Shown here: in pieces, positions 2,659 through 41,855 of the stretch
Layout of the letters: each line of letters begins with the position of its first letter
Numbering within the stretch: position 1 is the stretch's first letter
NCBI GenBank assembly: GCA_040754315.1
Contig: JBFMCS010000041.1
Location: forward strand, 1 to 64,000
Origin: Bacillota bacterium
Lineage (GTDB): Bacteria > Bacillota > Sulfobacillia > DUSP01 > JBFMCS01
Length of the DNA: 64,000 nt
Reading direction: 5' to 3'
Notes under the pieces: generated by a model
Told to the model about the DNA's origin: nothing
What the model saw: only the letters and a program-made list of their open reading frames with translations
Database searches by the model: none
Position numbers and translations under genes: made by a program

Positions 2659-2662
2659 CCGC

Positions 2663-7934: not shown

Positions 7935-7935
7935 G

Positions 7936-9683: not shown

Positions 9684-10399
9684 GGGGCGTACCCCCTTGG
9701 CGTCACCATAAAGTCCCCCCGGATGAAGGTGTAGGAGTTACCCACTATGACCGTGGAGCTCATGTCAGCCAGTTCCGGATCGAAGCCCCCAAGGTCGGCC
9801 AGGGTCACCGTCTGACCCGGTCTCCCGGCGTTCTTCACCAACCCCACCGGGGTTGTGGGAGACCGGTGGCTCTTGAGGATGTCCAGCGCACGCCTGAGGT
9901 GGTCCCTCCGGCCGTGACTCCTGGGATTGTAGAGCACAGCCACCATGTCGCCCGTCGCCACCGCCCTGAGCCGTCTCTCGATGATATCCCACGGGACCAG
10001 GATGTCGCTGAGACTCACAATAGCGAAGTCGGCGGAAAGGGGCGCCCCCAGGGCCGCTGCGGCCGCCACCGCCGCCGTCACCCCTGGCACTACTTCAACC
10101 TGAATGCCCTCGTAGCCAGGAAGGGCCTCCAGCACCGGCCCGGCCATCCCGTACACACCGGGATCCCCTCCGCTTGCCACGACCACGCTGCGCCCGGCCC
10201 CCGCTAGGACCAGGGCGTCCCGGGCCCTGGCCATCTCCTCTCCCATAGCGTAGGGGAGCACTTCCGCATGGCCTGTCATCCCTTTGATTAACCCGAGGTA
10301 GGTACCATAGCCCAGGACTACGTCGGCTTCCTCCAGGGCCTGCCGGGCCCTGGCTGTCATGTGGCCGGGGTCTCCGGGCCCTGTGCCGACCACCAGCAC
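9680..10399 (-). CDS. cbiH: cobalt-precorrin-3 C17-methyltransferase
   Basis: CbiH/CobJ methylates C17 and drives ring contraction. The SAM methylase motifs VVGTGPGDPGHMTARA, VASGGDPGVYGMA and EVVPGVTAAVAAAA are clear, and LYNPRSHGRRDHL is typical of this branch. The frame is open to an ATG at 10495, but that would overlap cbiG by 138 bp and add a low-complexity Gly/Ser stretch. I prefer the GTG at 10399 (~239 aa), which starts right at the first motif; the longer start is possible. Confidence 0.93.
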   Translation of the reverse strand: MLVVGTGPGDPGHMTARARQALEEADVVLGYGTYLGLIKGMTGHAEVLPYAMGEEMARARDALVLAGAGRSVVVASGGDPGVYGMAGPVLEALPGYEGIQVEVVPGVTAAVAAAAALGAPLSADFAIVSLSDILVPWDIIERRLRAVATGDMVAVLYNPRSHGRRDHLRRALDILKSHRSPTTPVGLVKNAGRPGQTVTLADLGGFDPELADMSSTVIVGNSYTFIRGDFMVTPRGYAP

Positions 10400-11457: not shown

Positions 11458-12242
11458 GGCATCGCGCCCCCCGGTCTGTGAGAGTGGGAGAAACGCCCGT
11501 GATAGAGCCTGGACCTCTGCCCACCGGCCTCCAGAAAACGACCCACGAGGATCAGGGCTGTGCGGGTTATCCCAGCTTCGGTGATCATGGCCGTGAGTTC
11601 GGAGAGGCGTCCCGTGATGACCCTTTCTTCCGGCCAGGATGCCTTCTCCACCACCGCAACTGGAGTGTCCGGGCTATAACCCCTGCCCAGATCCCTCTCA
11701 ACCTCCGCCGCCATGGCAGCGCTCAAGAAGAGGCACAGGCTGGATCCGTGGGCTGCCAGTCCCCCCAGGGATTCCTGGTCAGGTACCGGTGTCTTCCCTG
11801 CCACCCGGGTCAATATGAGGGTCTGGGAAACCCCGGGAACCGTGAACTCCCGCTTCAGTGTCGCCGCGGCGGCCTGGAAGGAACTGACCCCCGGCACCAC
11901 CTGGCATGGGACCCCCCGGGCCTCCAGGCGCTCTATCTGCTCGGCTATGGCCCCGTAAAGGCTGGACTCCCCTGTGTGGAGCCTTACCGCCAGGTGTCCC
12001 TGGCGGTGGGTCTCCTCCAGGACCGTGAGGATCTCTCCCAGGGTCATACCGGAGGAGTCCCGGAGGGAGGCGCTCGGGGGCACACCATCCAAGAGGGTGG
12101 GATTCACAAGAGAACCCGCATACACCACCACCTGGGCCGACCTCAGGAGCCTTGCGGCCTTCAGTGTAAGGAGCTCGGGATCGCCCGGCCCGGCGCCAAC
12201 GAAGTAGACGGGGTGTACGGGGGGGCCTGGTGACATCTTCAC
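11454..12242 (-). CDS. cbiF: cobalt-precorrin-4 C11-methyltransferase
   Basis: CbiF/CobM adds the C11 methyl. In ~262 aa it shows YFVGAGPGDPELLTLKAARL, VVYAGSLVNP (a CbiF signature), RLHTGESSLYGAIAEQ and VPGVSSFQAAAA. The GTG start at 12242 overlaps the cbiL stop by 4 bp (GTGA), the coupling pattern used throughout this operon. Confidence 0.96.
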   Translation of the reverse strand: MKMSPGPPVHPVYFVGAGPGDPELLTLKAARLLRSAQVVVYAGSLVNPTLLDGVPPSASLRDSSGMTLGEILTVLEETHRQGHLAVRLHTGESSLYGAIAEQIERLEARGVPCQVVPGVSSFQAAAATLKREFTVPGVSQTLILTRVAGKTPVPDQESLGGLAAHGSSLCLFLSAAMAAEVERDLGRGYSPDTPVAVVEKASWPEERVITGRLSELTAMITEAGITRTALILVGRFLEAGGQRSRLYHGRFSHSHRPGGAMP

Positions 12243-12958
12243 GAACAGGCCCCTCCTTTCTCGTGCTTAATTAGAATGGTGGATAGATAGGCGTCATGGA
12301 CCTGAGGGGCATTGTTTTGCCCTTCCAGGCCAAGATGAGTCCCCTGGAACAACTGGGCTCCGGGGTAGTGAGCCCGGAGGAAATCCTTCACCCGAGGTCC
12401 CCGGTCTCCAACTTTCAGCAAGGCCAGGGAATCGCAGATGCCCAGAAGAACGGCAAGAGCCTCCTCCTTCTGGGGACAGGGGGATATCAACAGCCTCTCC
12501 CTCCCCCTGGCCAGGGGCCACGGGACAATGGCGGCCGCGGCGAGGAAGGCAGGAACACCTGGCACCACCTCCACCGGAACCAAGGGCTCCAGGGACCGGA
12601 CCTCCTCAACGAGATAGCCGAAGGTGCTATAGAGACTGGGATCCCCCAGGGTGACGTAGGCCAGGTTCTCCCCCATCTCCAGGTGCTCCAGCAAGCACCG
12701 GGCTGCCTGCTGGTGGGCCCGCCTGAGGAGGCCTTGATCCGGGGTCATGGGAAGGACAAGGCTCATGGCGTGAAGACGCTTCCTGAGCCCGGCCTCGGCA
12801 ATGGCCAGCGCTCTGCTGCTCTTGCCTGGTGAAGGCACAGGGGCCACCACCAAGTCTGCTGTGTCCAATGCCTTCAAGGCCCGCAGGGTAAGGAGATTGG
12901 GGTCTCCGGGGCCAACACCTACCCCCGTGAGTGTCCCGAGGTTATCGAGACCGCTCAT
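12239..12958 (-). CDS. cbiL: cobalt-precorrin-2 C20-methyltransferase
   Basis: CbiL/CobI methylates C20 of cobalt-factor II/precorrin-2. The 239-aa protein has GVGVGPGDPNLLTLRALKAL, TLGDPSLYSTFGYL (typical of CbiL) and VVPGVPAFLAAAA. The ATG start overlaps cbiT by 4 bp. It is the first ring methylation after cobalt insertion by CbiX. Confidence 0.96.
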   Translation of the reverse strand: MSGLDNLGTLTGVGVGPGDPNLLTLRALKALDTADLVVAPVPSPGKSSRALAIAEAGLRKRLHAMSLVLPMTPDQGLLRRAHQQAARCLLEHLEMGENLAYVTLGDPSLYSTFGYLVEEVRSLEPLVPVEVVPGVPAFLAAAAIVPWPLARGRERLLISPCPQKEEALAVLLGICDSLALLKVGDRGPRVKDFLRAHYPGAQLFQGTHLGLEGQNNAPQVHDAYLSTILIKHEKGGACS

Positions 12959-13554
12959 GTCTCACCCCCCCTTTCCGCACTGATGATAGTGACAGGGTTC
13001 AAGCCCCGCCACAGCTTAACCGGTCCCACCGGCTCGGACCGGGCAATCGTCACCATGGTGGCCTGGATGTTCCGGTAGCCACTTTCCTCAAAGACCTCCA
13101 AAAAGCGGCCTACCCCGTCGGCCGTGACTGTGACGGCAACCACCCTGAATGGGGTGTTTATGAGGGAGCACAGTGCCGCCAGGATTTCTCGCTGCCGGCC
13201 TCCCGTCCCGCTCAGGATTACCCGGTCGGCCGGGGGCAGCTCCCGCAGGCATCCTGGCGCCTCATCGTGAATAAGGGTGGCGTTCTCAACGCCAAAGCGA
13301 ATAAGGTTCTCGCGGGTCAGATCCGTGGCGGAAGGGTCCCTCTCCACGGCGAACACCCTCCCCTCCGGGGCCAGGAGGGCCGCCTCCACACTGACGGAAC
13401 CGGTCCCGGAACCCACGTCCCAAATGCAGTGGTGCCGGGACAGCCTCGCCTGGGAGAGCACGAGGCAGCGCACCTCGGCCTTGGTCATGGGAACAGTGCC
13501 TTTGGCGAAGAGCTCATCGGGGATCCCCGGTACAGTGAAGGGCCACAGTCTCAC
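12955..13554 (-). CDS. cbiT: cobalt-precorrin-6B C15-methyltransferase (decarboxylating)
   Basis: CbiT methylates C15 and decarboxylates the C12 acetate. It has GIPDELF, VPMTKAEVR and the SAM site IWDVGSGTGSVSVEAALL. The frame extends to 13584, but a GTG at 13554 gives a 4-bp GTGA overlap with the cbiE stop and matches the usual family start just before GIPDE, so I use it (~199 aa). In many organisms CbiE and CbiT are fused as CobL; here they are separate and adjacent. Confidence 0.94.
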   Translation of the reverse strand: MRLWPFTVPGIPDELFAKGTVPMTKAEVRCLVLSQARLSRHHCIWDVGSGTGSVSVEAALLAPEGRVFAVERDPSATDLTRENLIRFGVENATLIHDEAPGCLRELPPADRVILSGTGGRQREILAALCSLINTPFRVVAVTVTADGVGRFLEVFEESGYRNIQATMVTIARSEPVGPVKLWRGLNPVTIISAERGGET

Positions 13555-14189
13555 GGGATCACCACCACTACAGCGGGCTCCCATGGCTGGGCAACGGAAC
13601 TCAGTTCCCTCACGGTCCCCTCCATCACCCGCTCCTCTGGGTAGCCCAGGTTCTCCCCCACCAGGAAGCGGTGGGATGAAAAGCCTCTCTTTAGGAGCGC
13701 CCTCGCCAAGACCTGGGGTCCAAGGCCCTGCCCGGTGAGAACAGCCACCGGATGGCGTGCCTCCAGGGCATCTTCCACGGCATCAAGATACTCTCCTAGC
13801 CGGTGCTCCCGGCCGTGCAGGCTCAGCAGGAGGGCACTGTGCCAGGGAAGGCAAGCCCTGGCGAAGGCCATCTGGAACGCACTTATGCCAGGAAACACCT
13901 GCAGGGACCCGGGCCCGAAGTATTCCCTCAGGCGTCCCAGGATCCCGTAGAGCCCTGGGTCGCCCGAGGCCAGAACCGCCACCCGGCGAGCCCTCTCCAT
14001 ATCCCGGAAGGCCCTGTCCAGGTCACGGTCCAGCAGAACGGCGGGCTTGTTTCCGGCATACTCCTCAAGGTGCCTCCTGCCTCCCACCAAGAGATCTGCG
14101 GAGCGAATGGCCTCCTCGGCGGCAGGTGCTAGCCATTCCCTTGGCCCCGGTCCTATGCCTACTACAGCTATGCGGTGTCTAGGTTCCAA
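13551..14189 (-). CDS. cbiE: cobalt-precorrin-7 C5-methyltransferase
   Basis: CbiE methylates C5. In 212 aa it shows VVGIGPGPREWLAPAAEEAI, LLVGGRRHLEEY, LASGDPGLYGILGRL and the C-terminal FLVGENLGYPEERV. It overlaps the end of the cbiO/cbiD fusion gene by 22 bp and precedes cbiT. The assignment is clear. Confidence 0.95.
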   Translation of the reverse strand: MEPRHRIAVVGIGPGPREWLAPAAEEAIRSADLLVGGRRHLEEYAGNKPAVLLDRDLDRAFRDMERARRVAVLASGDPGLYGILGRLREYFGPGSLQVFPGISAFQMAFARACLPWHSALLLSLHGREHRLGEYLDAVEDALEARHPVAVLTGQGLGPQVLARALLKRGFSSHRFLVGENLGYPEERVMEGTVRELSSVAQPWEPAVVVVIP

Positions 14190-17973: not shown

Positions 17974-18019
17974 CATGTATCAGCCTGTGTACACCGCTCT
18001 TTCCATCGAAGGGGTGACG

Positions 18020-18225
18020 TACACTCCCACACAGGCAGGTCTCCTGGCTTGCGGCTCATCGAGCTACCCGCTCCTTCCCATCCTCTCCAGAGGACAGTGG
18101 ATTGCGTGCGGGTTCTCTCACCGTTACAGTGGCGGGACCGCTCGGGATTCTCACCCGATTCCCTTTTCACCTCATAATGAGGCTCCTATGCGGCCAGTAT
18201 TCGGTTTTTGACGGGGAGTACTGCT
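18020..18225 (-). promoter_or_regulatory. cobalamin riboswitch
   Basis: On the minus strand the region holds the B12-box core CCCGCCACTGTAA (around 18124-18137), the upstream AGGGAATCGGGTGAGAATCC segment and the 3' CAGGAGACCTGCC strand. These are the conserved blocks of the adenosylcobalamin riboswitch. It lies about 200 nt upstream of cbiM and should repress the whole cbi/hem operon when cobalamin is sufficient. Confidence 0.95.
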
Positions 18226-18965: not shown

Positions 18966-20584
18966 TGCGGACATTTTCTTGGACTTTTCAGGCGTAGCCT
19001 AAGCTCTGCCTGTATTCCATTGGGCTCCTTCCGCCCAGCGATATCTTGATGCGCTTCTCATTGTACCAGTGCAGGTAGCTATCGAGTCTGTCAATGAACT
19101 CCTCGATGCTCACTCCAGCCCACGATCTCCCGTAGAAGAGTTCATTCTTCAGCCGTCCGAAGAAGCCTTCGCACGCGGCGTTATCGGGGGAACAACCTTT
19201 CTTAGACATTGAGCGGGTGAGCCCAGCCGCTTTCATCCTGTCAATCCAGCCTGGCCAGCGATAGTGGCTGCCGCGGTCGCTATGGATCAGAGGACGGTCA
19301 TTCTCCGCCAGCGTCGATATCGCGTTATCCAGCATGGAGTTCACCATCCCCGCGTCAGGACTAGTCCCGATACTCCAGCTAACCGCCATGCCGTCAAAGC
19401 AGTCAATTATAGGGGACAGGTAAACCTTGCCGGCAGGCAGAGGAAACTCCGTGAGATCGGTGAGCCACTTCGAATTGGGGGCCTGAGCGTGAAAGTCCCG
19501 CTCAATGATGTTGGGCACTGCGGGACTGCTCTCGCCCTTGTAAGCGCTATACCTGCGCTTCCTACGACCGACCACGACGAGGTTTTCGTCACGCATGAGG
19601 CGGCGCACTACCTTTTCGGACACGGTCTTACCATCTCCGATGAGAACGGCGTGAATCCGCCGGTAACCATATCGTCCGTCCGCCAGAGCGAATGCGGTGC
19701 GCTCGCGGAGCTCGGAATACTTATCCGGTATGGATAGGGCAGCGTAATGGTAGAAGTAGCTGCTCTTGGGCATAGAGAGACACCCCAGCAGGTCATTCAG
19801 AGGGTATCTCTCCCTCAGGGCGCCGATCGCTGCCGCCTTCTCCCGATTCGTCAGTTTCTTCGGATCGGCGCCCTGGTCTTTTTTTAGGATTTCTGCCGTC
19901 ACTTCCAAGACGTCTCGTTCGAGTTGGAGTCGGTAGACCTGCTCTTCCAATGCCTCTAACTGTCCCTTGAGCGACTCCACCTTGGCCAACAATGCGTCCC
20001 TGTCGTCCCTGGTTTTGTGTTTTCCCCGTTTTGGCCTGCTCACTGGGCGCTCCTTCCCGAGCAGATCGTACTTCCATTGATACAGGGCCGTGCGACTGAC
20101 GCCATACTGCCCAGCAACTTCTCGGGCTGGGCCGTCTTTGGAACACAAGTCCAGAACGGCTGCTTGTTTCTGCTCACGCGAGAATTCTACCTTGGGCTGA
20201 AGTGACCTTTTGGAGCGCAGTCCGCGCCTGTCCGGCACCGCCTCATCTAGCCATTGCCTGAGCGTTTCCCGGTTCGGGTAGCCCAAGGCCTGGATGCTCC
20301 GGCGTAAACTCCGGCCGTGTTCCAGGTAGTAATCTACCGCTGCCTGTTTCTGCTCGTTCGAGTACTTCGGTGGGCGACCGCGATATCCGTCATGAAGCGC
20401 GCCGGTGGCATTGTACTCCCTGACCCAATGTTTCAGCGTGTTCTTCGTAGGATAACCCAATTCCCGGCGAACCGCGGCCGAGTGGCCGCCATACTTGAGG
20501 TAGAGACTGACCGCCCTCATCCGGTCTTCCAGTGTGTACACGGACATCCTCCTGTCTCATTTTGAGTCCAGGTTTTTGTCCGCA
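18966..20584 (-). mobile_element. IS3-family insertion sequence, apparently complete
   Basis: The element is bounded by imperfect inverted ends that both start TGCGGACA and share TGGACT further in (18966 onward and 20584 backward), with TG...CA termini as usual for IS3. It contains one transposase frame. I see no target duplication: the flanks GGG and TCT differ, so the insertion may be old or one flank rearranged. It sits beside an IS21 remnant and a decayed integrase-type transposase. Confidence 0.85.
18988..20547 (-). CDS. IS3-family transposase, single-frame
   Basis: A 519-aa protein. The N-terminal half holds repeated helix-turn-helix units (two KxTLKHW / RETLRQW-like modules and a third in the 130-170 region, ALYQWKYD), then a leucine-rich coiled coil (~residues 190-230). 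The C-terminal half is an rve/DDE integrase core with WLTDLTEF, LIHSDRGSHY and DNAACEGFFGRLKNE, giving an intact D-D-E triad. Most IS3 elements need a frameshift between orfA and orfB; here it is one frame, as in several clostridial elements. Possibly still active. Confidence 0.92.
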   Translation of the reverse strand: MSVYTLEDRMRAVSLYLKYGGHSAAVRRELGYPTKNTLKHWVREYNATGALHDGYRGRPPKYSNEQKQAAVDYYLEHGRSLRRSIQALGYPNRETLRQWLDEAVPDRRGLRSKRSLQPKVEFSREQKQAAVLDLCSKDGPAREVAGQYGVSRTALYQWKYDLLGKERPVSRPKRGKHKTRDDRDALLAKVESLKGQLEALEEQVYRLQLERDVLEVTAEILKKDQGADPKKLTNREKAAAIGALRERYPLNDLLGCLSMPKSSYFYHYAALSIPDKYSELRERTAFALADGRYGYRRIHAVLIGDGKTVSEKVVRRLMRDENLVVVGRRKRRYSAYKGESSPAVPNIIERDFHAQAPNSKWLTDLTEFPLPAGKVYLSPIIDCFDGMAVSWSIGTSPDAGMVNSMLDNAISTLAENDRPLIHSDRGSHYRWPGWIDRMKAAGLTRSMSKKGCSPDNAACEGFFGRLKNELFYGRSWAGVSIEEFIDRLDSYLHWYNEKRIKISLGGRSPMEYRQSLGYA

Positions 20585-22831: not shown

Positions 22832-23317
22832 TCAGCCCTCTCTCGGGTTGATAGAGACTATCTCATACTTCAGAATGCCCACTGGCACCTTGACCTCAAC
22901 TATGTCACCAACTCGGCTGTTGAGGAGTGCCTTGCCCACAGGGGACTCGTTGGAGATCCTGTTCTTGCCTGGATCGGCCTCGGTAGACCCAACCAGGACG
23001 TACTCTACCTCTTCGCCCGACTCTGGGTTCCTGAGGCGCACCCGTGAACCGATGCAGACCTGGGTCACGTCATAGTCGCATTCTTCAACCAGCCGTGCGT
23101 TCCGGAGGATCTTCTCAAGAGTAAGGATCCTGCCTTCCACGAAGGCCTGCTCGTTCTTTGCGTCCTCATATTCGGAGTTCTCGTTGATGTCTCCGAACTG
23201 CCTGGCAAACTTAATCCTCTCGGCAATCTCCCTGCGCCTCACGGTTTTTAGGTATCCCAGTTCCTCCTCCAGCTTCTGAAGCCCCGCATGGGTGAGGATG
23301 ACTTCTTTCTCTACCAT
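22832..23317 (-). CDS. greA: transcription elongation factor GreA
   Basis: GreA rescues backtracked RNA polymerase by stimulating transcript cleavage. The 161-aa protein shows the N-terminal coiled coil ([20 protein letters not shown]) with the acidic tip [15 protein letters not shown], and the C-terminal FKBP-like domain ([31 protein letters not shown]). First gene of a greA-lysS operon. Confidence 0.97.
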
Positions 23318-23732: not shown

Positions 23733-25391
23733 TTAGACATCCACATCAATGGTCTCAAATATCCGGTCTATCCTCTCTCTTTCCAGGAGCACCCGGCCAC
23801 TGTGGGGGTCAACCGCCTGGATAGCACCGTTCACAGCCCTGGTGACTATGGCTCCCGCGGCATGGGGGTTACCCTTAAGGTTGGGGGCATCCAGAAGGCC
23901 GACCTTCACGGCCCGGGCCAGGATCAGTGGATCACACAAGGCATCCTCTACCCCGTGCCCTCCCAGCGTCCTGACGGCATCCATGAGAACGCTGACCTCT
24001 GCTACCAGTTCCTTCTTCCTGCGGTCTATCACAGGGTCCAGGGTGATGTTGGGTAGGCCTCCGAGACTCCTGACAATGACCTGCCGCGCCAGAGTACAGC
24101 TCTCAATTACCTCGTCAGCCGTGGCAGCGTGGTCTGCCTCGCAGTAGGCCACCACGTGCACGATGTCAGGCTTCAGGAACATCTGGAGGTAGATGGAGGA
24201 ACCCAGTTGCCCCCGGGCCTGTGCGATATCCACCGGGAAGCTGAGGAGCCCAGAGCGGGTTTGCTTGTAGACGCGGAAGTCTTTGTCAGCAAGTGATCCA
24301 ACTAGATCCATCTTAGCAAGCATCTTCGCCAGGTCCATCCGATCGCTCATCTGGGGCGGTGTATGGAGCATGTAGGCGCCGATGAAATCCTTAACTCCCA
24401 TCTTCTTCGCTATATACGCTGCAATGTATGCAGTGGCCACCGCTACGGTGTCATGGCACCCCCGGAGCTCCCAGTGGTGTGATTCGTTGGCCTCCACCGG
24501 GATATTACGATGCCCGTGCCACCTCATCAGCTGCATGTGTTCCCGTATGGATTCCTCCACCGACATGGGACCCCGTTCGTCCAGGGCATTAAACCAGAAT
24601 ACCGATGTGGCACACCATGTGTTGCTGATGGTTCTTTCAAGCATTTCGGCATAACGGATCAATTCATCTGTGCCCGAGTAGGACCTCATTAACGGGTAGT
24701 TGCCTGCCCTGGAGGCCTCGTATAGCCTTACTAGGTCCTTCTCGGTACGCACAGGAACCCCACCCGCACCCTTCCGCGTTGGGTCACAGCGCTCGGGATG
24801 AAAGAAGTTTTCCTGGGCATCCTGGTCCGGTCCCAGGGAGATCACATCCAGCACCTTAGCCCGGGCAATCTTTTGTATGCCCTCCACTGTAGGTTCTATA
24901 TCTTGGGCCGGAACACCGAAGTGGTGCCTTATCAAAGGAAAGGGAGCCTTTTGCCTCAAGCGCTCCACCATTGTGTGGGCGTAGCTGGCTTCATCCTTAG
25001 CCACCATGGGCCTGCCCTTCAAGAAACCCATTATGTCCTCAACAGGCTCCTCGCCAGTGAAGACAGCGTCAAAGAACCCCAGCGCTTTGGCCTTTTCCGC
25101 CACAGGCTTGGTGCCGCCGAAACAGAACTTCCTGCCACGGGACAAACCTGCCTCTTCCAGCGCATGCCGGAACCCCGTCAAGAGCTTCTCAGCCACCTCC
25201 GGAGTAAGCCGGTAGCTTACCGCTACTACATCCGGGTTGGTCTCTCGGATGGCTCCGATGAAATCCCTTACCGGAGTGGCAGGCCCTAGGAATTCTGTAT
25301 GGTGCCCTGCCTCTTCAGCCAGCCGGAGGAAGTTTAGCACTCCAGCCACATGCACGCACTCCCCCAGCGCGCCTGCGAGGATCCTGGTCAT
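23733..25391 (-). CDS. cobalamin-binding-domain mutase-like protein, paralogue 1
   Basis: 552 aa, function unproven. Residues ~1-130 resemble a B12-binding Rossmann fold: ECVHVAGVLNFLRLAEEAG at the place of the cobalt-ligand motif, VVAVSYRLTPE, and CFGGTKPVAEKAKALGFFDA. The classical DxHxxG appears as CVHVAG. The remaining ~420 residues form a large domain with VLDVISLGPDQDAQENFF, GAGGVPVRTEKDL, SYSGTDELIRY, VEANESHHWELRG and DLAKMLAKMDLVGSL; I do not recognise a characterised enzyme. It is the last gene of an operon with a GlmL/MutL-type protein and an opine-dehydrogenase-like protein (14-nt gap). A full paralogue lies at 40179-41855. I infer a B12-dependent mutase or B12 carrier. Confidence 0.75.
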   Translation of the reverse strand: MTRILAGALGECVHVAGVLNFLRLAEEAGHHTEFLGPATPVRDFIGAIRETNPDVVAVSYRLTPEVAEKLLTGFRHALEEAGLSRGRKFCFGGTKPVAEKAKALGFFDAVFTGEEPVEDIMGFLKGRPMVAKDEASYAHTMVERLRQKAPFPLIRHHFGVPAQDIEPTVEGIQKIARAKVLDVISLGPDQDAQENFFHPERCDPTRKGAGGVPVRTEKDLVRLYEASRAGNYPLMRSYSGTDELIRYAEMLERTISNTWCATSVFWFNALDERGPMSVEESIREHMQLMRWHGHRNIPVEANESHHWELRGCHDTVAVATAYIAAYIAKKMGVKDFIGAYMLHTPPQMSDRMDLAKMLAKMDLVGSLADKDFRVYKQTRSGLLSFPVDIAQARGQLGSSIYLQMFLKPDIVHVVAYCEADHAATADEVIESCTLARQVIVRSLGGLPNITLDPVIDRRKKELVAEVSVLMDAVRTLGGHGVEDALCDPLILARAVKVGLLDAPNLKGNPHAAGAIVTRAVNGAIQAVDPHSGRVLLERERIDRIFETIDVDV

Positions 25392-25405
25392 GTAATTCCC
25401 CCCAG

Positions 25406-26500
25406 TTACGGGGCGCTTTGCCCCTCCTCCACGAATTCTACCACATGGTCCACTCCCATATCAGCCAATCCCAGGTTGTTGGCGGTCCTGCCAGACTCCC
25501 ACATGTCCTGGCCGAGTAGGAATCCGGCAAGGTCTGCCACACACCTCGAGGCGGGTGTGGGTACCCCCGCTAGCTCGCCCAGGCTCACCATGGGCACCAG
25601 TCCCGTGGGAACATCCTCCCACAGGTACCGAATATCGAGGCTGTCAGGAGCGTCAATCCGCTTATATACCTCGTTAGCGTTCATCATTCGGTAGAGGCTG
25701 TCCTTCTGGACACCGTAGGCGTCAATCAGCCATTCGCTGGCTGATTCCACCTGGACCCCAAGGCGCTTGGCGACAGCCAGTCGTTCAGTATCGATAGCCT
25801 CGATAAGGCGTCCCACGGCTGGAGTCACCCCGTCAGAATAGAACTTGAAGGCCTCCTTGGCATCCAACCTTGCTGCATTGAGGCAGGTGATGGCTGGGTG
25901 GAAGACCGCCCCTATGTTCATCAGGCTGGTCTCCAGAACGTTCTTAGCCGGAATGAACTGGGGGAAGGCCTGGTTCAGTATCTCCAGGACCTCCGGGGTA
26001 TGCCTTGCGGGCAGAGCTGCCACCGGCACTATCTTCTTTACACCCTTAATGGATACGGTGCCCGGGGAAGTCACCCTGCACGCATATAGCAGGGACTGGG
26101 CCTCCGCTACCAGCACCCGCGCCCTGCATTGCTCCCTACGTAGGACAGCGGCAAACTCTAGGGCTCCACCTGTGCGCCCCGGATGCAGCACTATCACCTG
26201 CCCGTCCACCAGGTGAGGGGCGAGACGAGTAGCTAGAAAGGCATGGGCTGTGGCAGGAACCACTACCATGATTAGCACAGCACCCTCTATAGCCTCGGCG
26301 GGATCGAGAGTAGCCAGGGACACCGGCCCGAAGCCTTCGATTGCATCAGTGACCTGGATCCCGCCGTGCCTTCGTACCGCCTCCAACCTTGGGAGAGACC
26401 GGTTCAGCATCTTCACCTCATACCCCATGATGCCAAGATGAGCAGCGAAGGCAGCTCCTCCGTTTCCAGCGCCCACCACCGTAACAGGGAGTTGTGCCAT
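25406..26500 (-). CDS. opine/octopine dehydrogenase-family oxidoreductase
   Basis: 364 aa. The N-terminal NAD(P)-binding Rossmann domain begins VTVVGAGNGGAAFAAHLGIM. The C-terminal helical domain has NIGAVFHPAITCLNAARLD and FYSDGVTPAVGRLIEAID, characteristic of the NAD/NADP octopine/nopaline dehydrogenase family, which reduce imines between an amino acid and a keto acid or act on related substrates. It sits between the MutL-like gene and the B12-binding protein, suggesting it processes the substrate or product of the putative mutase. The true substrate cannot be read from sequence. Confidence 0.85.
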   Translation of the reverse strand: MAQLPVTVVGAGNGGAAFAAHLGIMGYEVKMLNRSLPRLEAVRRHGGIQVTDAIEGFGPVSLATLDPAEAIEGAVLIMVVVPATAHAFLATRLAPHLVDGQVIVLHPGRTGGALEFAAVLRREQCRARVLVAEAQSLLYACRVTSPGTVSIKGVKKIVPVAALPARHTPEVLEILNQAFPQFIPAKNVLETSLMNIGAVFHPAITCLNAARLDAKEAFKFYSDGVTPAVGRLIEAIDTERLAVAKRLGVQVESASEWLIDAYGVQKDSLYRMMNANEVYKRIDAPDSLDIRYLWEDVPTGLVPMVSLGELAGVPTPASRCVADLAGFLLGQDMWESGRTANNLGLADMGVDHVVEFVEEGQSAP

Positions 26501-26547
26501 TCCTCTCCCTCCCTCAGAGCATCAGTAGGATCAATGCTGGTAAGCCA

Positions 26548-27933
26548 TCATACCTCCACCAGATATCTCCGGAGAATCCTTAAGGCCCTGTCGCTATCCA
26601 CCTCGTCCAGCAATCCTACAGCCCACAACACGTATGAGCGGTCAACGAAGAGGCGTGGGGTCTTCGGGCGCAGGGCCAGGGGATCACTGTCATGGTAGAG
26701 GGCTTCTTCCAGTATGACCCTGGGCTCCTCCGAGTGGGCGAAGATGCCCCCCGTTCCAAGAACCTTGTTGACATGGGTCAGGTCCTTGCCCTTCTGCAGG
26801 TAGAACACCCCTGCGGGCGTGGATATTTCCTTGAGCCTTCCCACATGCCTGAACACCGCTTGTTTGACCGCAGCCTTGCCTAATCCAGTATCTACCGCCC
26901 GCTCTTCACCAGTTGTGGGGACAAAACCAACGTTATCGTGGAGCCTTCTGACCCAGGCCCCTATGTCGCACTTACCGCCCACCATCTCAGTGAGGGCCTT
27001 CGGACCAACCGTATGGAGCAAAGACTCCGCACTAACCCTGAGACCCAGATCTCCTTCAACGGTGCGCTTGGCGTAGGGTTCAGGCAAGCCCCGGAAGATG
27101 GCGCGCTCCCGGGAAGGGCGCCCGTCAGCTATGGAATGCACATCGGTCGTGGCACCTCCTACATCCACCACCATTACCTCTCCCGCCCCGGGTTCGTCGT
27201 AGGTACCGTCCGCCAGTCTTTTCGCGCCGTGTAGCACTGCTGCAGGGGTCGGCATGATGGTACCGTCAGCCCACATCTTGGCTTTGTCCAGGCCCTTCGC
27301 TTCGACAATCCGCTCCATGTAGAGCCGCCTGATTGCCTGCCGGGCTGGAATCGTGTCTATCTTGCCCAGGGCAGGCATGACATTGGAGGCAACCCTCACT
27401 TCCCTTCCCGAGCGCTTAAGCACGTCAGCCACCTGCTGGGCCACAACCTTGTTACCTGCCACCACCACCGGCGTCTTGGACTCACACTCTGATAGCGCCC
27501 TGGCGTTGTGGAGTATTACCTCTTCATCTCCTCCATCAGTGCCTCCAGCCAGCAGGATGAGATCGTGGGCACTCTCATCAATCTCCTTGGCTTCAGCAGA
27601 GGAGAGCTTGTAGGCAAACACCTTGCACACCCGTGCTCCAGCACCTAGCGCTGCCTGGCTGGCCGCCTCAGCCGTGAGTTCCCTCACAAGCCCCACTGCG
27701 ATAACCCGCAACCCCCCGGCGGCACTGGAACACGCCAGCCTAGTATCAAAGTCGCTTTCTCGCAGTCCCGTTTCCCGGGTCAGGCGCTCCATGGCGCGCC
27801 TGAGTCCCAGCATTATGTCTTCTTCCACCGTCGTGACGGACTTGCTTTGCCCCAGGACGATTTCGTCGTCAAGATCCACCGCTACCAATTTGGTATAAGT
27901 GCTGCCGAAATCGACGAGAAGGATCCTTGCCAT
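26548..27933 (-). CDS. GlmL/MutL-type ASKHA protein (B12 mutase-associated)
   Basis: 461 aa with an actin/Hsp70/sugar-kinase ATPase fold: N-terminal phosphate loop ILLVDFGSTYTKLVAVDL, LILLAGGTDGGDEEV, VVVAGNKVVAQQV, and the second phosphate loop MVVDVGGATTDVHSIADG. This is the MutL/GlmL family, encoded beside glutamate mutase and ornithine or lysine aminomutases, where it is thought to act as chaperone or reactivase. Its presence is the best argument that the neighbouring B12-binding protein is an adenosylcobalamin enzyme. A TATAAT with a 17-nt spacer upstream suggests an additional internal promoter. Confidence 0.88.
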   Translation of the reverse strand: MARILLVDFGSTYTKLVAVDLDDEIVLGQSKSVTTVEEDIMLGLRRAMERLTRETGLRESDFDTRLACSSAAGGLRVIAVGLVRELTAEAASQAALGAGARVCKVFAYKLSSAEAKEIDESAHDLILLAGGTDGGDEEVILHNARALSECESKTPVVVAGNKVVAQQVADVLKRSGREVRVASNVMPALGKIDTIPARQAIRRLYMERIVEAKGLDKAKMWADGTIMPTPAAVLHGAKRLADGTYDEPGAGEVMVVDVGGATTDVHSIADGRPSRERAIFRGLPEPYAKRTVEGDLGLRVSAESLLHTVGPKALTEMVGGKCDIGAWVRRLHDNVGFVPTTGEERAVDTGLGKAAVKQAVFRHVGRLKEISTPAGVFYLQKGKDLTHVNKVLGTGGIFAHSEEPRVILEEALYHDSDPLALRPKTPRLFVDRSYVLWAVGLLDEVDSDRALRILRRYLVEV

Positions 27934-28012
27934 GGACCTCCTCCTTCCTCAAACGGGCTTCCCTGGCTCCCAGGAGGGCCGAAAAGGCCTCCGACATGGG
28001 GAGGCCAAGAAG

Positions 28013-28041
28013 ATTATAACACAAGTTGCCAGGCAAAGCAA
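28013..28041 (-). promoter_or_regulatory. possible internal promoter before the MutL-like gene
   Basis: In the 166-nt gap between two genes of the cluster the minus strand has TTGCTT (28036-28041), 17 nt, then a perfect TATAAT (28013-28018). It would allow the MutL/opine/B12-binding genes to be expressed independently of the upstream regulator. Confidence 0.5.
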
Positions 28042-28099
28042 AAGAGCTTTGGGGGCTACTAGGGGCTCGCCAATGGGTAAAACGGGCACTCAACGGTTC

Positions 28100-29194
28100 T
28101 CAGGCACTCGCATGGCCTCTAATCATCTTGCGCCTTGCCGCTCTATCCCTTATTCTCCGGAGTTCCGTTTCGTCCAGGGCGCGGTCGAAGCTCCTCAACC
28201 CAGCCAGACGGAACCCGTGTTTCCTAGCGAGAGCACTAATCTCCTCAATCTGCCTTACCGTAAGGTCCTTCCCCAGGGTGAAGTTCTCGTGCCTTCCCTC
28301 CAGGGCAAGTAGCATGGTCTCGGCCATGCAGGCCATCGCATGCCCCGGGGGGAAACCGAAATTGAACCCGAAGTCCACTTGGCCTGGGACCTCCACAACG
28401 CCGCCCTCAATCACAAGGACATCGTCCCTGGCGGTTGCCACCCGTACGGACACATCCCGGGGCCTTGCCACGTCGCACACGACGGCCCCCGGTTTGAGAT
28501 GCTCCGGGTGGATGATGCTGTCGACGGCACTGGAGACAGCCAGGATTATGTCGGCCTTGGGCAATTCCCTGTTGATGTCCGTTGATAGACGGGGGGTCAG
28601 TCCGGTGCTGGATACTAGCTGGCGGGCCAGGTGATCCAGCCTGCCGAGGTCCTTGCCTATGAGGGTCATCTTGCGGGCCTGCCGGGCCAGTATGTGAGAG
28701 CAAGCCTTGCCAATTGAGCCGGTGGCTCCCACCACGGCAATCTCCGCATGATCCCAGTCAATCCCCATGAATTCCGCAGCCTTCCTGGCTCCCTCCAGGG
28801 CAGTGGCCACAGTATAGCTGTTGCCTGTTGTCACGGAAACCCCCAGGTTCTTGGATATCGTAACACCAGCGTCGCCTACCACGGAGGTGAAGGCCCCCAG
28901 GCCTAGCACGTCCACGCCCAGTCTTTCTCCCACTCGCGCCACATTGATGATCTTGTTAATCACCAGGTCCGCTGGAAGGCTCACCATCTGTCGGGAGGTG
29001 AGAGTCAGGCCCAGGAACCAGCCCTCCGTTTCGGCATGGGGTGAACGGATCCCGGTAATATGCGAGACCAGCAGTGGCTTCATCCTGAGGCCAACGGCCT
29101 CGATCACCCAGCCCGGGAGGTACCTGGCGACCGGATACTTCCTTACCATGTCTTTTGTGTTCAGGGGGTGGATTATGAAAGCGAACCTACCCAC
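28100..29194 (-). CDS. Rossmann-fold oxidoreductase resembling acyl-ACP reductase
   Basis: 364 aa. The layout follows the cyanobacterial long-chain acyl-ACP reductase (AAR)/glutamyl-tRNA-reductase-like family: an N-terminal segment with FAFIIHPLNTKD and GWFLGLTLTSRQM, then LGLGAFTSVVGDAG, TTGNSYTVATALEGARKA, the nucleotide-binding VVGATGSIGKACSHILAR, and late ADIILAVSSAVDSIIHPE and VIEGGVVEVPGQVDF segments. Members bind NADPH; the substrate here is unlikely to be a fatty acyl-ACP and is unknown. It is encoded 44 nt after the quinate-dehydrogenase-like gene in the same cluster. Confidence 0.7.
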   Translation of the reverse strand: MGRFAFIIHPLNTKDMVRKYPVARYLPGWVIEAVGLRMKPLLVSHITGIRSPHAETEGWFLGLTLTSRQMVSLPADLVINKIINVARVGERLGVDVLGLGAFTSVVGDAGVTISKNLGVSVTTGNSYTVATALEGARKAAEFMGIDWDHAEIAVVGATGSIGKACSHILARQARKMTLIGKDLGRLDHLARQLVSSTGLTPRLSTDINRELPKADIILAVSSAVDSIIHPEHLKPGAVVCDVARPRDVSVRVATARDDVLVIEGGVVEVPGQVDFGFNFGFPPGHAMACMAETMLLALEGRHENFTLGKDLTVRQIEEISALARKHGFRLAGLRSFDRALDETELRRIRDRAARRKMIRGHASA

Positions 29195-29238
29195 GGACTA
29201 CACCTCCGAACTTATCCCTTCCCACGGCCACCGGACTT

Positions 29239-30144
29239 TCAAAGGTGGACTACCCTGGGTTCGAAATTCAAGCGATCCAGCAAGGTATTGTAGTCTTCGA
29301 CCGTCATGTCTTCAGGTCCCTTTCCCGCAATCGATATCAGCAGTGCCTCCATGACGTTTGTCCCGAATGACCTGCCTTCCATTTCAGGGGTTGTTGTGAC
29401 AAGGATCTTGATGCCCGCGTCTCTTAGGAGCTCGAGGTCAGCAGGGGTAACAGTATTGGTTATCATGCTCTTGCCCGGGAGGTCATCTGGCATGTATCGC
29501 TTGATGAAGTGGAAGTCCCCACAGATTACCTCGGCTTCATGGAAGTAACGCACGTGCTTGGGGGAACGCTTCTCCTGCTTCTCCCCGGTGGGGTAAAGCC
29601 ACTCAAAGGGGAGTTTTACCACTACTGGGGCCAAGACACGGGCCACCCAGTACATCTGGCGCAGGGTGGTCATGGGAAGCGGCAGGTTGAGAACGTAAAT
29701 CAGGTCGGCGAACACCGTCCGGGCTCCCTCCTTAACCAAGGCCTCGGCCATACCTGAGCGGTCCACCGAGCTGGTAACGAGAACCCTTGTGCCCTTCAGG
29801 GGAAAGACGTTCCTGGCCACATGATGGATTACCCTGCGTTCCAGGGTGTTCTTGAGACCACTGCCATCCACAATCGGGGATTTTTTGGCCGCCCGTTTCA
29901 AGGGAAGGGCTCCCCTAATGGTGTAGACTCGATCTCCAGCCCTGATATAGAGGTCGATACCGCCCATGCCGAAGGCATCTACCTGGCCATCCAGTTCTTG
30001 TATTAGGCGCACTGCCTTCTTGACGTCCCCGTCTGTGCCGATCCTCTCGATCTGGAACCTCTCACCCAGGACGTCGACTTGCACCAGGTGGTCCCGCTTG
30101 GATGAACCTAGGCTTACGCTTACTATCCTCTTCAGGTGAACCAC
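29239..30144 (-). CDS. conserved protein of the quinate 5-dehydrogenase-like family
   Basis: 301 aa, no characterised function that I can confirm. It has RIVSVSLGSSKRDHLVQVDV at the N-terminus, VDAFGMGGIDLYIRAGDRVY, a TRVLVTSSVDRSGMAEALVK segment that may bind nucleotide, and KSMITNTVTPADLELLRDAG. Similar proteins in clostridia are, as I recall, labelled quinate 5-dehydrogenase without firm support. It follows the HTH regulator by 31 nt and precedes the AAR-like gene, so it probably belongs to the same pathway. Confidence 0.6.
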   Translation of the reverse strand: MVHLKRIVSVSLGSSKRDHLVQVDVLGERFQIERIGTDGDVKKAVRLIQELDGQVDAFGMGGIDLYIRAGDRVYTIRGALPLKRAAKKSPIVDGSGLKNTLERRVIHHVARNVFPLKGTRVLVTSSVDRSGMAEALVKEGARTVFADLIYVLNLPLPMTTLRQMYWVARVLAPVVVKLPFEWLYPTGEKQEKRSPKHVRYFHEAEVICGDFHFIKRYMPDDLPGKSMITNTVTPADLELLRDAGIKILVTTTPEMEGRSFGTNVMEALLISIAGKGPEDMTVEDYNTLLDRLNFEPRVVHL

Positions 30145-30175
30145 TCCTCGCCTTCTCGTTGAGACGATAGCATTC

Positions 30176-30703
30176 CTAGGCCTTGATCTCCCGGATAAGG
30201 TCCCTTAGGCGTTCCGGATCCACGTACACGTCCTCGGATAGAGGTGACTTGCCAATTTCCCATGGTATGACGTCCTTGTCAATGAGGGCTTGGATGAACC
30301 GCACTCTCTCGTCTGAGCCTATGACCACCGTCGTGTCATATGCCCTTACCTGCCCGATAAGCCTGACTATGTCGTTTACCAGCTGGGCGCCGCTCCTGTC
30401 CTGCACGTAGGCCCATCGCTCCCGGTTGTCCATCACCACGGAGAGTTCCACACCCTCCTTGGCCGCCACCGCCACTATCTCGTCCTTGTTGGCCACCGGC
30501 ATGGCTATCAGGGCCAGCGAACCTCCCCGCCTGACCTCCCCCATTGACTCAAGCCTGGAGATGAAACTGCGGTCCACACCCAGCCTGTCCGCCACCTCTT
30601 GCTGCGAGAAACCCTGACCTCTAAGGGCCAGTATTTCCTTGACACGGTCCCTGATCCGAGACGGGTCTATGAGCTTGTCCCCTATGCGAAAAAAGCGACC
30701 CAT
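30176..30703 (-). CDS. XRE-type HTH transcriptional regulator
   Basis: ~175 aa from the ATG at 30703 (GRFFRIGDKLIDPSRI...). Residues ~15-50 form a helix-turn-helix: GFSQQEVADRLGVDRSFISR. The rest is an unrecognised sensor-like domain containing VVMDNRERWAYVQDRSGAQL and VVIGSDERVRFIQALIDKD. It heads the putative B12-mutase operon and has a 20-bp palindrome over its own transcription start, so autoregulation and control of the cluster are likely. Confidence 0.82.
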   Translation of the reverse strand: MGRFFRIGDKLIDPSRIRDRVKEILALRGQGFSQQEVADRLGVDRSFISRLESMGEVRRGGSLALIAMPVANKDEIVAVAAKEGVELSVVMDNRERWAYVQDRSGAQLVNDIVRLIGQVRAYDTTVVIGSDERVRFIQALIDKDVIPWEIGKSPLSEDVYVDPERLRDLIREIKA

Positions 30704-30718
30704 TGCCCCAGTCCCCCG

Positions 30719-30738
30719 TGTGCTCAAAATTGTGCACA
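30719..30738. promoter_or_regulatory. near-perfect 20-bp palindrome, likely operator
   Basis: TGTGCTCAAAATTGTGCACA matches its reverse complement at 16 of 20 positions (TGTGCnCAA / TTGnGCACA). It starts ~7 nt downstream of the -10 box and covers the predicted start point of the HTH-regulator operon. This is an ideal repressor position. Confidence 0.7.
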
Positions 30739-30743
30739 GGATC

Positions 30744-30772
30744 ATTCTAGCACCTGACGCAGCTGATCGCAA
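30744..30772 (-). promoter_or_regulatory. promoter of the regulator/B12-mutase-like operon
   Basis: TTGCGA (30767-30772), 17-nt spacer, TAGAAT (30744-30749) on the minus strand. The leader before the regulator ATG is ~35 nt and contains the palindrome. Confidence 0.75.
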
Positions 30773-30776
30773 CACT

Positions 30777-31490
30777 CTAAGGTTCCTTGTCGAGGATTTG
30801 TGTCACGGTGACTGGATCCAGCCCGCGCTCTTTCATATCCGCTAGGATGCCCGGCAGTGCCAGCTTGGTGGGTTCGGTGGGGTGCATGAGTAAGAGGGAA
30901 CCACTTGAGGCCTTGGAAGCCCGCTTGCGCACTACAGAAGGTGGTGGCCTTCTCCAGTCCACCGTATCAACCGTCCACAGTATGGTCCTGTAGCCCAAGT
31001 CCTCGGTAGCCTGGAGGCTTTCCTCCGTGTACTCCCCGTAGGGCGGGGCGTAGATCCTGGCGGGCTCACAGGCAAGCACATCCCTGAGAAGAGCCTCATT
31101 GTCTATGATGAGCCTCTCAATGCCCTTGCGGTCCAGCTCGGCTGGGTGCGCGTGAGAGTACCCGTGGTTTCCCACTTCATGGCCGGCTTCGGCTATACGC
31201 CGCAGCAGGTCGGGATGCTTCTTGGCCCAGGTTCCTGTCACAAAGAAGGTGGCTCTGGCCCGCCCGTCCTCTAAGACCTGAAGGATGTCCGGGATGTACT
31301 CTTCACCCCAGTCCACATTGAACATGAGGGCAACCCTGGGCAGCGCTGGGTTACCCATTAGGACCGGCCCCGCACCCGAAGACGCGGGGACAGCCACAGG
31401 AGTGGATACGCCAAGGAAAAAAGCCATGAGGAAGACGCAGGCCAGCGCGGGCGTCGCCCTTACGGTAAACACCTTCCAAGTCACCTTCAC
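30777..31490 (-). CDS. polysaccharide deacetylase, exported
   Basis: 237 aa. An N-terminal hydrophobic segment (PALACVFLMAFFLGVSTPVA) acts as signal or anchor. The NodB domain follows with ALMFNVDWGEEY (catalytic Asp), ATFFVTGTW, the metal-binding GHEVGNHGYSHAH, APPYGEY and the C-terminal LLLMHPTEP histidine motif. The family removes N-acetyl groups from cell-wall or spore polysaccharides. The first motif reads NVDW where many members have F-D-D, which may affect metal binding. Regulation is not evident. Confidence 0.9.
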   Translation of the reverse strand: MKVTWKVFTVRATPALACVFLMAFFLGVSTPVAVPASSGAGPVLMGNPALPRVALMFNVDWGEEYIPDILQVLEDGRARATFFVTGTWAKKHPDLLRRIAEAGHEVGNHGYSHAHPAELDRKGIERLIIDNEALLRDVLACEPARIYAPPYGEYTEESLQATEDLGYRTILWTVDTVDWRRPPPSVVRKRASKASSGSLLLMHPTEPTKLALPGILADMKERGLDPVTVTQILDKEP

Positions 31491-39959: not shown

Positions 39960-40095
39960 AAACGGTCTGAACGCTGAAACCCCCTGCGGGGGGTGCGGGG
40001 GACCCAGTCAACAGGGGCGAATCCCTTGCAAGAGGGTAGGGCCACACTCTTTCGGTCCGAGTCCGTCAGCTAACCTCGTAAGCGTGGAAGGAGGA
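39960..40095 (+). promoter_or_regulatory. c-di-AMP riboswitch (ydaO/yuaA type)
   Basis: The sequence contains the conserved blocks GGGGGACCCA, GGGGCGAATCC, AGGGTAGGG and GTCCGTCAGCTAACCTCGTA, with ACGCT (39971-39975) and AGCGT (40081-40085) closing the first helix. This matches the ydaO leader closely. It precedes a cobalamin-binding-domain gene, not the cell-wall or potassium-transport genes usually found behind this class. Confidence 0.92.
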
Positions 40096-40114
40096 GACCC
40101 CGGGTTCTGAACCT

Positions 40115-40144
40115 AACCCAGGGGTGTCCCTGGGTTTCGGTTTT
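40115..40144 (+). terminator. riboswitch-controlled terminator
   Basis: AACCCAGGG (40115-40123) pairs with CCCTGGGTT (40128-40136), followed by TCGGTTTT. An alternative hairpin can form between ACCCCGGGTT (40097-40106) and AACCCAGGGGT, using the same 5' arm, so terminator and antiterminator are mutually exclusive. Confidence 0.8.
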
Positions 40145-40178
40145 CCTCTCACCGTTGGCCGGAAAGGAGAGGATGGCC

Positions 40179-41855
40179 ATGAAGAAGAGGATCGTTGGAG
40201 CCGCGATAGGTGACTGCGTTCATGTGGCTGGGGTCATCAACTTCCTAAGATTAGCGGAGGATTCCGGCTACGAAACGGTGTTTCTCGGGCCGGCCGTGCC
40301 TGTGGACACCTTTCTCAAGGTGGTGGAACAGGAATCACCCTACATGGCGGCGGTGGGATACCGCCTATCCCCCGAGACCGCGAAGCCACTCCTGGAGAGA
40401 CTCTCCAAGGGTGTCCGGGAGCGAAAGTGGACTAGGTTGCCTTTGCTCACCATGGGAGGCACTCCCCCCGTTGCCAGGGTGGCGGAGAGTCTAGGCATCT
40501 TTGACAGGGTATTCTCCGGGCTCGAGGACATAGACGAGGTTCTCGGCTTTCTCAAGGGGCATAGTGGCCGCAGGGAGAACTCCAAGCGCCCCCCCAGTAC
40601 CCTGGTGGAACGTATAGAATTCAAGCGACCCTACCCGGTCATCCGTCACCACTTCGGCCTTCCAGACCTGGACGTGACTGTCCGGGGCGTCAAGACCCTT
40701 GCATCCTCGGGCGTCCTGGATGTAATATCCTTGGGTCCTGACCAGAACGCCCAGGAGAGCTTCTTCAGGCCCTGGGAGATGGATCCCTCACAGGATGGGG
40801 CCGGGGGTGTTCCCCTGCGGACACCCGAGGACCTCCGCAGGCTGTACGGGGCCGCCCAGTGCGGCAACTACCCACTTCTCCGGTGCTACAGCGGAACCCG
40901 GGACGTATTCAAAATGGCCGACCTGCTCCTGGCCACCATTGATAACGCTTGGAGTGCCATCCCCGTGTTCTGGTACAATGTCCTTGACGGCAGGGGCCCA
41001 CGGAACTTGGAGGAGTCAATACGGGATTCCCAGCGTCTAATGGCCTGGCACGCCGCCAGGGGCGTGCCGGTGGAGGTCAACGATGCCCACCAGTGGAGCC
41101 TCAGGGATGCCCACGATGTGGTGGCGGTGGTGGCCGCATTCCTCGGAGCCTACAACGCTAAGCGGGCGGGAGTGACCACCTACGTCGCCCAGTACATGTT
41201 CAACAACCCTCCAGCCACATCGCCCATGATGGATCTGGCCAAGATGATGGCGAAGATAGAGATGATTGAGTCTCTTCACGATGAGAGTTTCCAGAGCTTC
41301 AGGGAGGTCCGGGCCGGTCTGGCCAGCTTCCCAGCAGACATGGACATGGCCAAGGGGCAGCTCGCTGCCTCCACCTACCTGGGCATGACACTGAACCCTG
41401 ACATCGTGCATGTCGTGGCCCATACCGAAGGAGACCACGCAGCCACACCCCATGACATCATTGAGGCCTGCAAGATAGTGCGTGGGGTAATCAGGAACTG
41501 CATGGCCGGTCTGCCTTCAATGATCCAGGACCCGGTGGTACTCACGAGAAAGCAGCAACTCCTGGAGGAGGCCGGGGTACTCCTGGAGGCCATCCGGGGG
41601 CTTGCACCTCAGGGTACAGCGGACCCCTGGGCAGACCCGGTCACCCTTGGCCTGGCCGTCCGCGGCGGGCTGATGGACGCGCCCCACCTGAAGGGAAATC
41701 CCGTTGCCCGGGGTGAGGTGCGTACCCGAATGGTGAACGGCACGTGCTGCGCCGTGCATCCAGACACCCAGAAACCCTTGAGTGAGAGGGAAAGGATTGA
41801 TCTAGCCAGGAGAGCAGCCATGGTAAAGGGCATCCCTCAGGTTGCAGCAGGCTAG
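40179..41855 (+). CDS. cobalamin-binding-domain mutase-like protein, paralogue 2
   Basis: ~558 aa, close paralogue of the protein at 23733-25391 over its full length. N-terminal B12-like domain: AIGDCVHVAGVINFLRLAED, AAVGYRLSPETAK, TMGGTPPVARVAESLGIFD. Shared blocks in the large domain: GVLDVISLGPDQNAQESFF, GAGGVPLRTPEDLRRLY, RCYSGTRDVFKMADLL, VEVNDAHQWSLRDAHDV, MMDLAKMMAKIEMIESL. I choose the ATG at 40179 (nine bases after AAGGAG) over ATG 40173 and an upstream TTG. It stands alone behind a c-di-AMP riboswitch and terminator, unlike paralogue 1. Biochemical function unproven. Confidence 0.8.
   Translation: MKKRIVGAAIGDCVHVAGVINFLRLAEDSGYETVFLGPAVPVDTFLKVVEQESPYMAAVGYRLSPETAKPLLERLSKGVRERKWTRLPLLTMGGTPPVARVAESLGIFDRVFSGLEDIDEVLGFLKGHSGRRENSKRPPSTLVERIEFKRPYPVIRHHFGLPDLDVTVRGVKTLASSGVLDVISLGPDQNAQESFFRPWEMDPSQDGAGGVPLRTPEDLRRLYGAAQCGNYPLLRCYSGTRDVFKMADLLLATIDNAWSAIPVFWYNVLDGRGPRNLEESIRDSQRLMAWHAARGVPVEVNDAHQWSLRDAHDVVAVVAAFLGAYNAKRAGVTTYVAQYMFNNPPATSPMMDLAKMMAKIEMIESLHDESFQSFREVRAGLASFPADMDMAKGQLAASTYLGMTLNPDIVHVVAHTEGDHAATPHDIIEACKIVRGVIRNCMAGLPSMIQDPVVLTRKQQLLEEAGVLLEAIRGLAPQGTADPWADPVTLGLAVRGGLMDAPHLKGNPVARGEVRTRMVNGTCCAVHPDTQKPLSERERIDLARRAAMVKGIPQVAAG

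Follow-up and report, generated by a model that had tools for sequence, protein, structure and literature searches.

A putative adenosylcobalamin mutase and its acidic-type opine dehydrogenase partner: a candidate osmolyte module often placed behind c-di-AMP riboswitches

Which reaction does a 552-aa protein with a B12-binding-like N-terminus catalyze, and which of its neighbors act with it? The question is raised by a 64,000-nucleotide stretch of contig JBFMCS010000041.1 from a Bacillota bacterium (the whole stretch is called the window and its genome G000; in the survey labels, G-numbers denote genomes and L-numbers loci). Six minus-strand genes encode, in order, a helix-turn-helix (HTH) regulator, a 301-aa protein, an AAR-like protein, a MutL-type protein, an opine dehydrogenase (ODH) and the 552-aa protein. 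A preliminary description, which had located the genes correctly, took all six for one regulated unit with the 552-aa protein as the mutase. Our results favor a smaller module, MutL-ODH-mutase, in which an adenosylcobalamin (AdoCbl) mutase and an acidic opine dehydrogenase would catalyze successive steps, with osmolyte synthesis as the likeliest role, a reading to which we assign a probability of about 0.55. The module sits between the AAR-like gene and greA (22832-23317), and a polysaccharide deacetylase gene (30777-31490) flanks the cluster on its other side.

23733..25391, minus strand: 552-aa putative adenosylcobalamin mutase, in which a GlmE-like barrel (about 150-540) follows the B12-binding domain (residues 3-119) on the same chain
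25406..26500, minus strand: opine (octopine-type) dehydrogenase, PF02317 E 1.6e-46, with R109, G197, catalytic H201 and R34 (NADPH type)
26548..27933, minus strand: MutL/GlmL-type ASKHA protein, putative mutase reactivase or chaperone, PF13941 E 3.9e-164
27934..28099, minus strand: 166-bp gap 5' of mutL, with TATAAT at 28018-28013 and a weak -35, read from the sequence

A transcript of the three genes may possibly start in this gap. No promoter was called there by a consensus scan, no Rfam match was obtained, and folding 5' of mutL did not rise above that of shuffled sequences, giving no sign of a structured leader.

We examined whether the 552-aa protein belongs to a known class. The B12-binding-like N-terminal domain seen earlier was confirmed by a Pfam scan (PF02310, residues 3-119, E 1.3e-10, 41.5 bits against a cut-off of 32.1). 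The same scan returned Met_asp_mut_E (PF06368) at residues 313-529 below threshold (E 3.3e-5, 23 bits against 26.6), and no match to OAM_dimer, Lys-AminoMut_A or any domain specific for pyridoxal phosphate (PLP). TIGR01503 scored 10.8 bits against 390.1, no model in the curated family libraries searched claims the family, and plain phmmer against the PDB gave weak matches to the B12 domain only. An AlphaFold2 model built from 39 aligned sequences reached a mean predicted local distance difference test (pLDDT) of 91 and a predicted template modeling score (pTM) of 0.89. Its best Foldseek match was glutamate mutase E (GlmE; 1cb7_B, E 1.9e-15), followed by ornithine 4,5-aminomutase, lysine 5,6-aminomutase and the methylmalonyl/isobutyryl-CoA mutases. 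Likewise, a profile of the barrel aligned with ten GlmE proteins over the whole barrel (hhalign E 9e-9). Together, sequence and model place the protein in the adenosylcobalamin fold class of glutamate mutase, the aminomutases and methylmalonyl-CoA mutase, as a single-chain member that is presumably cobalamin dependent. At least 534 relatives were present among the matches listed in a pattern scan of named genomes, and the mutase is carried by 58 of 299 genomes of the same phylum. Relatives occur in Bacillota, Chloroflexota, Bipolaricaulota, Poribacteria, Sumerlaeota and one Bathyarchaeota bin, where single contigs of metagenome-assembled genomes (MAGs) may be misbinned. Fervidicola ferrireducens and Bellilinea caldifistulae are cultured carriers.

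Residues of the predicted active site set the family apart from GlmE. The histidine (H14) and glycine (G17) of the cobalt-ligand motif are invariant; of 94 proteins, 89 have C-x-H-x-x-G and four the canonical D-x-H-x-x-G (L061, L068, L109, which is archaeal, and the remote relative L034). In a profile alignment, GlmE Arg66, Arg100 and Arg149 (numbered on L134), which we take to be the glutamate-holding "arginine claw", fall on the invariant H157, Q193 and Y238, and GlmE E330, presumably a contact of the adenosyl ribose, falls on the invariant E418. Because GlmE (a full PF06368 match) is absent from G000 and the family does not keep the arginines that bind glutamate, the 552-aa protein is probably not a glutamate mutase.

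The MutL protein scores 547 bits with PF13941 (cut-off 27) and 593 with the NCBIfam GlmL model NF040745 (cut-off 475), which confirms its earlier assignment to the GlmL/MutL type. Its gene adjoins that of the mutase in the clade of the window and in two branches that diverged early, and natural mutase-MutL fusions, in frames of 1233 and 1214 aa with ODH upstream, occur at L035 and L036. A strong MutL is found in 47 of the 58 genomes that carry the mutase and in 69 of the 241 that do not (odds ratio 10.7, p 3e-13, related genomes not being independent). Full GlmE is present in 10 of the 58. The second MutL of G000 adjoins an OraE-like 780-aa aminomutase (Lys-AminoMut_A, OAM_dimer and B12-binding; L033, G000:C52 8505-12228, minus strand), and since the genome has no GlmE, the window MutL is left for the window mutase. 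The GlmE-first fold match, the barrel alignment, the MutL operon, fusions and co-occurrence, and the absence of GlmE thus uphold the proposal that the 552-aa protein is the mutase. In most mutase-bearing Chloroflexota (G299-G318) a divergent MutL is encoded away from the mutase, by a frame of about 590 aa.

In 56 of the 58 genomes no more than 1.5 kb separates ODH from the mutase. ODH stands beside the remote relatives L034-L037 as well, and is joined to the mutase in one natural 920-aa frame at L096. The window enzyme, rightly called opine-dehydrogenase-like before, matches PF02317 (Octopine_DH) at 158.5 bits (cut-off 30), has its catalytic His-Asp pair at H201 and D296, and aligns over nearly its full length with PDB 1BG6, N-(1-D-carboxylethyl)-L-norvaline dehydrogenase (ArODH; E 5.4e-78). 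Telek et al. 2024 (PMC10787698) report that hot-spring ODHs about 40% identical to ArODH prefer L-Asp or L-Glu with pyruvate, that Arg at position 111 and Gly at 198 (ArODH numbering) govern this acidic preference, and that the pair A111R/N198G turns ArODH to L-Asp. The equivalents in the window ODH are R109 and G197. The Arg occurs in every one of the 80 mutase-linked ODHs, and the Gly in each of the 79 where that position is resolved; only five of 20 unlinked ODHs have the pair (L150, L153, L154, L165, L158), and the genome of L150 carries a mutase elsewhere. These residues place the partner of the mutase in the acidic-amino-acid class of opine dehydrogenases. In mutase-free genomes, ODHs of the R/G type have an rpiR-type regulator on one side and a sodium/glutamate-symporter-like gene on the other (L167, L168, L171, L173), a context that again points to acidic amino acids. 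The rpiR, ODH and symporter-like set may itself serve uptake of opines or acidic amino acids.

Under what conditions would such a module be expressed? The window holds, on the other strand, a second mutase copy behind a cyclic di-AMP (c-di-AMP) riboswitch.

39962..40098, plus strand: c-di-AMP riboswitch aptamer (ydaO/yuaA), Rfam RF00379 93.9 bits, gathering 38
40115..40136, plus strand: intrinsic-terminator-like hairpin, 9-bp stem and T-rich tail, between aptamer and second mutase
40173..41855, plus strand: second copy of the mutase, sharing 50% identity with the 552-aa protein, start codon placed by eye after AAGGAG

Between the aptamer and the likely start codon of the second mutase lie 74 nt, which include the terminator-like hairpin; no other c-di-AMP riboswitch was found in the genome. 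The second copy scores 28.3 bits for B12-binding, under the 32.1 cut-off, and has neither ODH nor MutL beside it; both this copy and the c-di-AMP link had been missed in the preliminary description. The 58 mutase genomes hold 76 c-di-AMP riboswitches, 29 of which lie upstream of the module (same strand, at most 5 kb upstream of the mutase) in 28 genomes, against about 0.08 such riboswitches expected by chance; G000 is counted through its second mutase. The linked aptamers are canonical, scoring up to 110 bits, and mostly lie directly 5' of ODH; in 10 genomes, G000 included, the linked riboswitch is the only one of its kind found. Where ODH and mutase are apart, in G274, the riboswitch precedes ODH. 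Outside the phylum sample of the window, the closest relative of the MutL type is L053 (a contig of G024), where the order is riboswitch-ODH-ATP-grasp-161aa-MutL-mutase. Together these placements mark the module as a frequent predicted target of c-di-AMP riboswitches in related bacteria.

The c-di-AMP riboswitches described in the literature control genes of osmotic shock and of the cell wall. PMC9337991 places the osmolyte-precursor genes ablA and eam under Na+ riboswitches, one ablA also being under a tandem c-di-AMP riboswitch. By analogy, the mutase-ODH module could be a B12-based parallel to these genes. The literature text examined does not name a B12 mutase/opine dehydrogenase module as a c-di-AMP riboswitch target; the primary ydaO lists (Nelson 2013, Block 2010) lie outside that text, so prior notice is possible. 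Within the literature searched, no paper brings octopine/opine dehydrogenase together with glutamate mutase or adenosylcobalamin, or a c-di-AMP riboswitch together with any of these.

From the partner genes, fusions and riboswitch linkage we infer that MutL, ODH and the mutase serve one pathway, whose steps may be ordered as follows. MutL would keep the mutase cofactor active. ODH would use NAD(P)H to join an acidic L-amino acid of the Asp/Glu type with pyruvate, forming an N-(1-carboxyethyl) opine. The mutase would rearrange that opine, or the acidic amino acid feeding ODH, by radical chemistry, and the product would accumulate as an anionic or amidated compatible solute. In riboswitch carriers, high c-di-AMP, signaling no osmotic need, would halt transcription. 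The narrower version, in which the mutase acts directly on the opine to yield an N-(2-carboxyethyl) amino acid, a new anionic osmolyte under the c-di-AMP switch, is in our judgment doubtful. It would draw on the N-(1-carboxyethyl) group being a CH3-CH(COO-)-X unit of the kind that B12 mutases meet in 3-methylaspartate and methylmalonyl-CoA, and its product, no longer oxidizable by ODH, would be trapped; if true, both the AdoCbl reaction and the class of compatible solute would be new. Few AdoCbl mutase reactions are known, and here more than 500 relatives come with a near-constant dehydrogenase from a class with experimentally determined substrates. The mutase-ODH pathway, if right, would add a B12 reaction, give acidic opine dehydrogenases, found only recently, a physiological role and tie B12 to osmotic signaling, and the candidate substrates are few enough for direct testing.

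Several observations weigh against this pathway. Cobalamin binding and catalysis by the 552-aa protein are predictions, the Asp of the DxHxxG motif is Cys in most of the family, and the proposed mutase substrate is deduced from ODH alone. Both a B12 domain and co-occurrence with MutL, whose absence was to have counted against a mutase, were found, though 11 of the 58 genomes are without a strong MutL; ten of these have an adenosyltransferase, and in the other, G278, neither of the adenosyltransferase families tested was found. ODHs of the R/G type also exist without a mutase, beside the glutamate-symporter-like gene. An Rfam scan found no RF00379 riboswitch at the window MutL-ODH-mutase operon, and no c-di-AMP riboswitch was present at the sampled Chloroflexota and Halanaerobiales loci; osmotic control is therefore not universal.

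A rival reading is a fermentative role, in which the mutase would isomerize a free acidic amino acid (converting, for instance, glutamate into 3-methylaspartate or a related isomer) and ODH would couple the product with pyruvate or run in reverse, serving amino-acid fermentation instead of osmolyte synthesis. In its favor, GlmE has the closest fold, many of the carriers are MAGs from lineages in which anaerobic fermenters are known, and the R/G-type ODH adjoins the symporter-like gene where no mutase is present. Against this, the three GlmE arginines are replaced by invariant H157, Q193 and Y238, and control by c-di-AMP in 28 genomes would be unusual for amino-acid fermentation; we consider this role unlikely, while it is the best of the alternatives. 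It is quite improbable that the 552-aa protein binds a cobamide without being a mutase, as a corrinoid methyl carrier or B12 sensor that kept a GlmE-like barrel for binding. Weak NCBIfam matches of the N-domain do include methyltransferase corrinoid proteins, and the Asp-to-Cys change would suit such a role. However, corrinoid methyl carriers match the model in its N-terminal domain only and the top whole-chain matches are mutases, no methyltransferase stood out among the recurring neighbors, MutL is linked and even fused, and GlmE E330 is matched by the invariant E418.

The remaining genes, on the favored mutase-ODH reading, fall outside the module.

28100..29194, minus strand: AAR/PigE-like Rossmann protein, judged outside the module
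29239..30144, minus strand: 301-aa protein of no known family, judged outside the module
30176..30775, minus strand: HTH regulator (HTH_3 E 6.8e-6), judged outside the module

The proposal of a single six-gene operon, in which the AAR-like and 301-aa proteins process the mutase product, agrees with the contiguity and shared strand of the genes in G000 but is very improbable, since HTH-301aa-AAR-greA-lysS occurs elsewhere without the mutase (directly 5' of greA and lysS at L175, L178 and L180), the mutase and the 301-aa/AAR genes lie 22 kb to 2 Mb apart on shared contigs in 13 other genomes compared, and their frequencies differ strongly (301-aa family in 224 and AAR-like in 187 of the 299 phylum genomes, mutase in 58). 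We judge HTH-301aa-AAR a separate, commoner locus, with the 301-aa and AAR/PigE-like genes (28100-30144, minus strand) forming a conserved pair. The AAR-like label stands; the quinate-dehydrogenase-like one does not, as the 301-aa protein had no significant match in Pfam, NCBIfam or the PDB. The idea that the dehydrogenases handle the mutase substrate or product survives in part: it finds support for ODH, whereas a place in the pathway is not supported for the 301-aa protein, the AAR-like protein or the HTH regulator, which stays with these two genes in relatives.

An asparagine-synthase gene neighbors 17 of 99 mutase loci and lies between mutase and ODH in four (L061, L068, L063, L113). We tried and rejected a beta-lactam-synthetase-like step: five of seven copies tested pass the ordinary AsnB cut-off, and the two below it, at L063 (4476-5843) and L128 (12857-14215), stand next to mutase-ODH, start MSGIAG and have no glutaminase Cys; the neighbor is therefore treated as optional. 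L063 also has a D-glutamate-cyclase-like protein. Ddl-like ATP-grasp ligases, below Ddl cut-offs where tested, lie on the same strand near the module in distant phyla (L111, L071, L108, L039/L053). Elsewhere in the window, a cobalamin riboswitch (18017-18204, minus strand, 122 bits) lies near a heme/cobalamin biosynthesis-like cluster (1354-14189, minus strand, from open reading frame starts), because of which we think the organism probably makes its own cobamide. A 519-aa transposase-like open reading frame (18988-20547, minus strand) was seen by eye, and a T-box leader (48482-48744, minus strand, 97 bits) lies 5' of the gene at 47428-48426.

How does the module compare with known systems? 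The D-ornithine 4,5- and lysine 5,6-aminomutases (OraE, KamDE) are the second-best fold class. OraE, which uses PLP, likewise joins B12 domain and barrel in one polypeptide, and ornithine operons carry a MutL relative; its B12 domain is C-terminal (residues 604-752 matched), in contrast to the N-terminal one here. The c-di-AMP (ydaO/yuaA) regulon shares the canonical aptamers upstream of the module, and differs in that the B12 mutase/ODH module is not among its targets named in the literature text examined. The mutase-linked ODHs resemble the hot-spring metagenomic mODH of PMC10787698: both stand about equally far from ArODH/1BG6 and carry Arg at 111 and Gly at 198, usually with Arg at 35, from which we deduce that the two are probably the same. 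The closest relative is glutamate mutase GlmES (EC 5.4.99.1), which shares the nearest solved fold, the whole-barrel profile match, a MutL above the GlmL cut-off and the E330/E418 correspondence. GlmES has separate S and E subunits, whereas here the B12 domain forms the N-terminus of one fused chain that scores under the Pfam and NCBIfam cut-offs, does not conserve the arginines and keeps a near-constant ODH neighbor.

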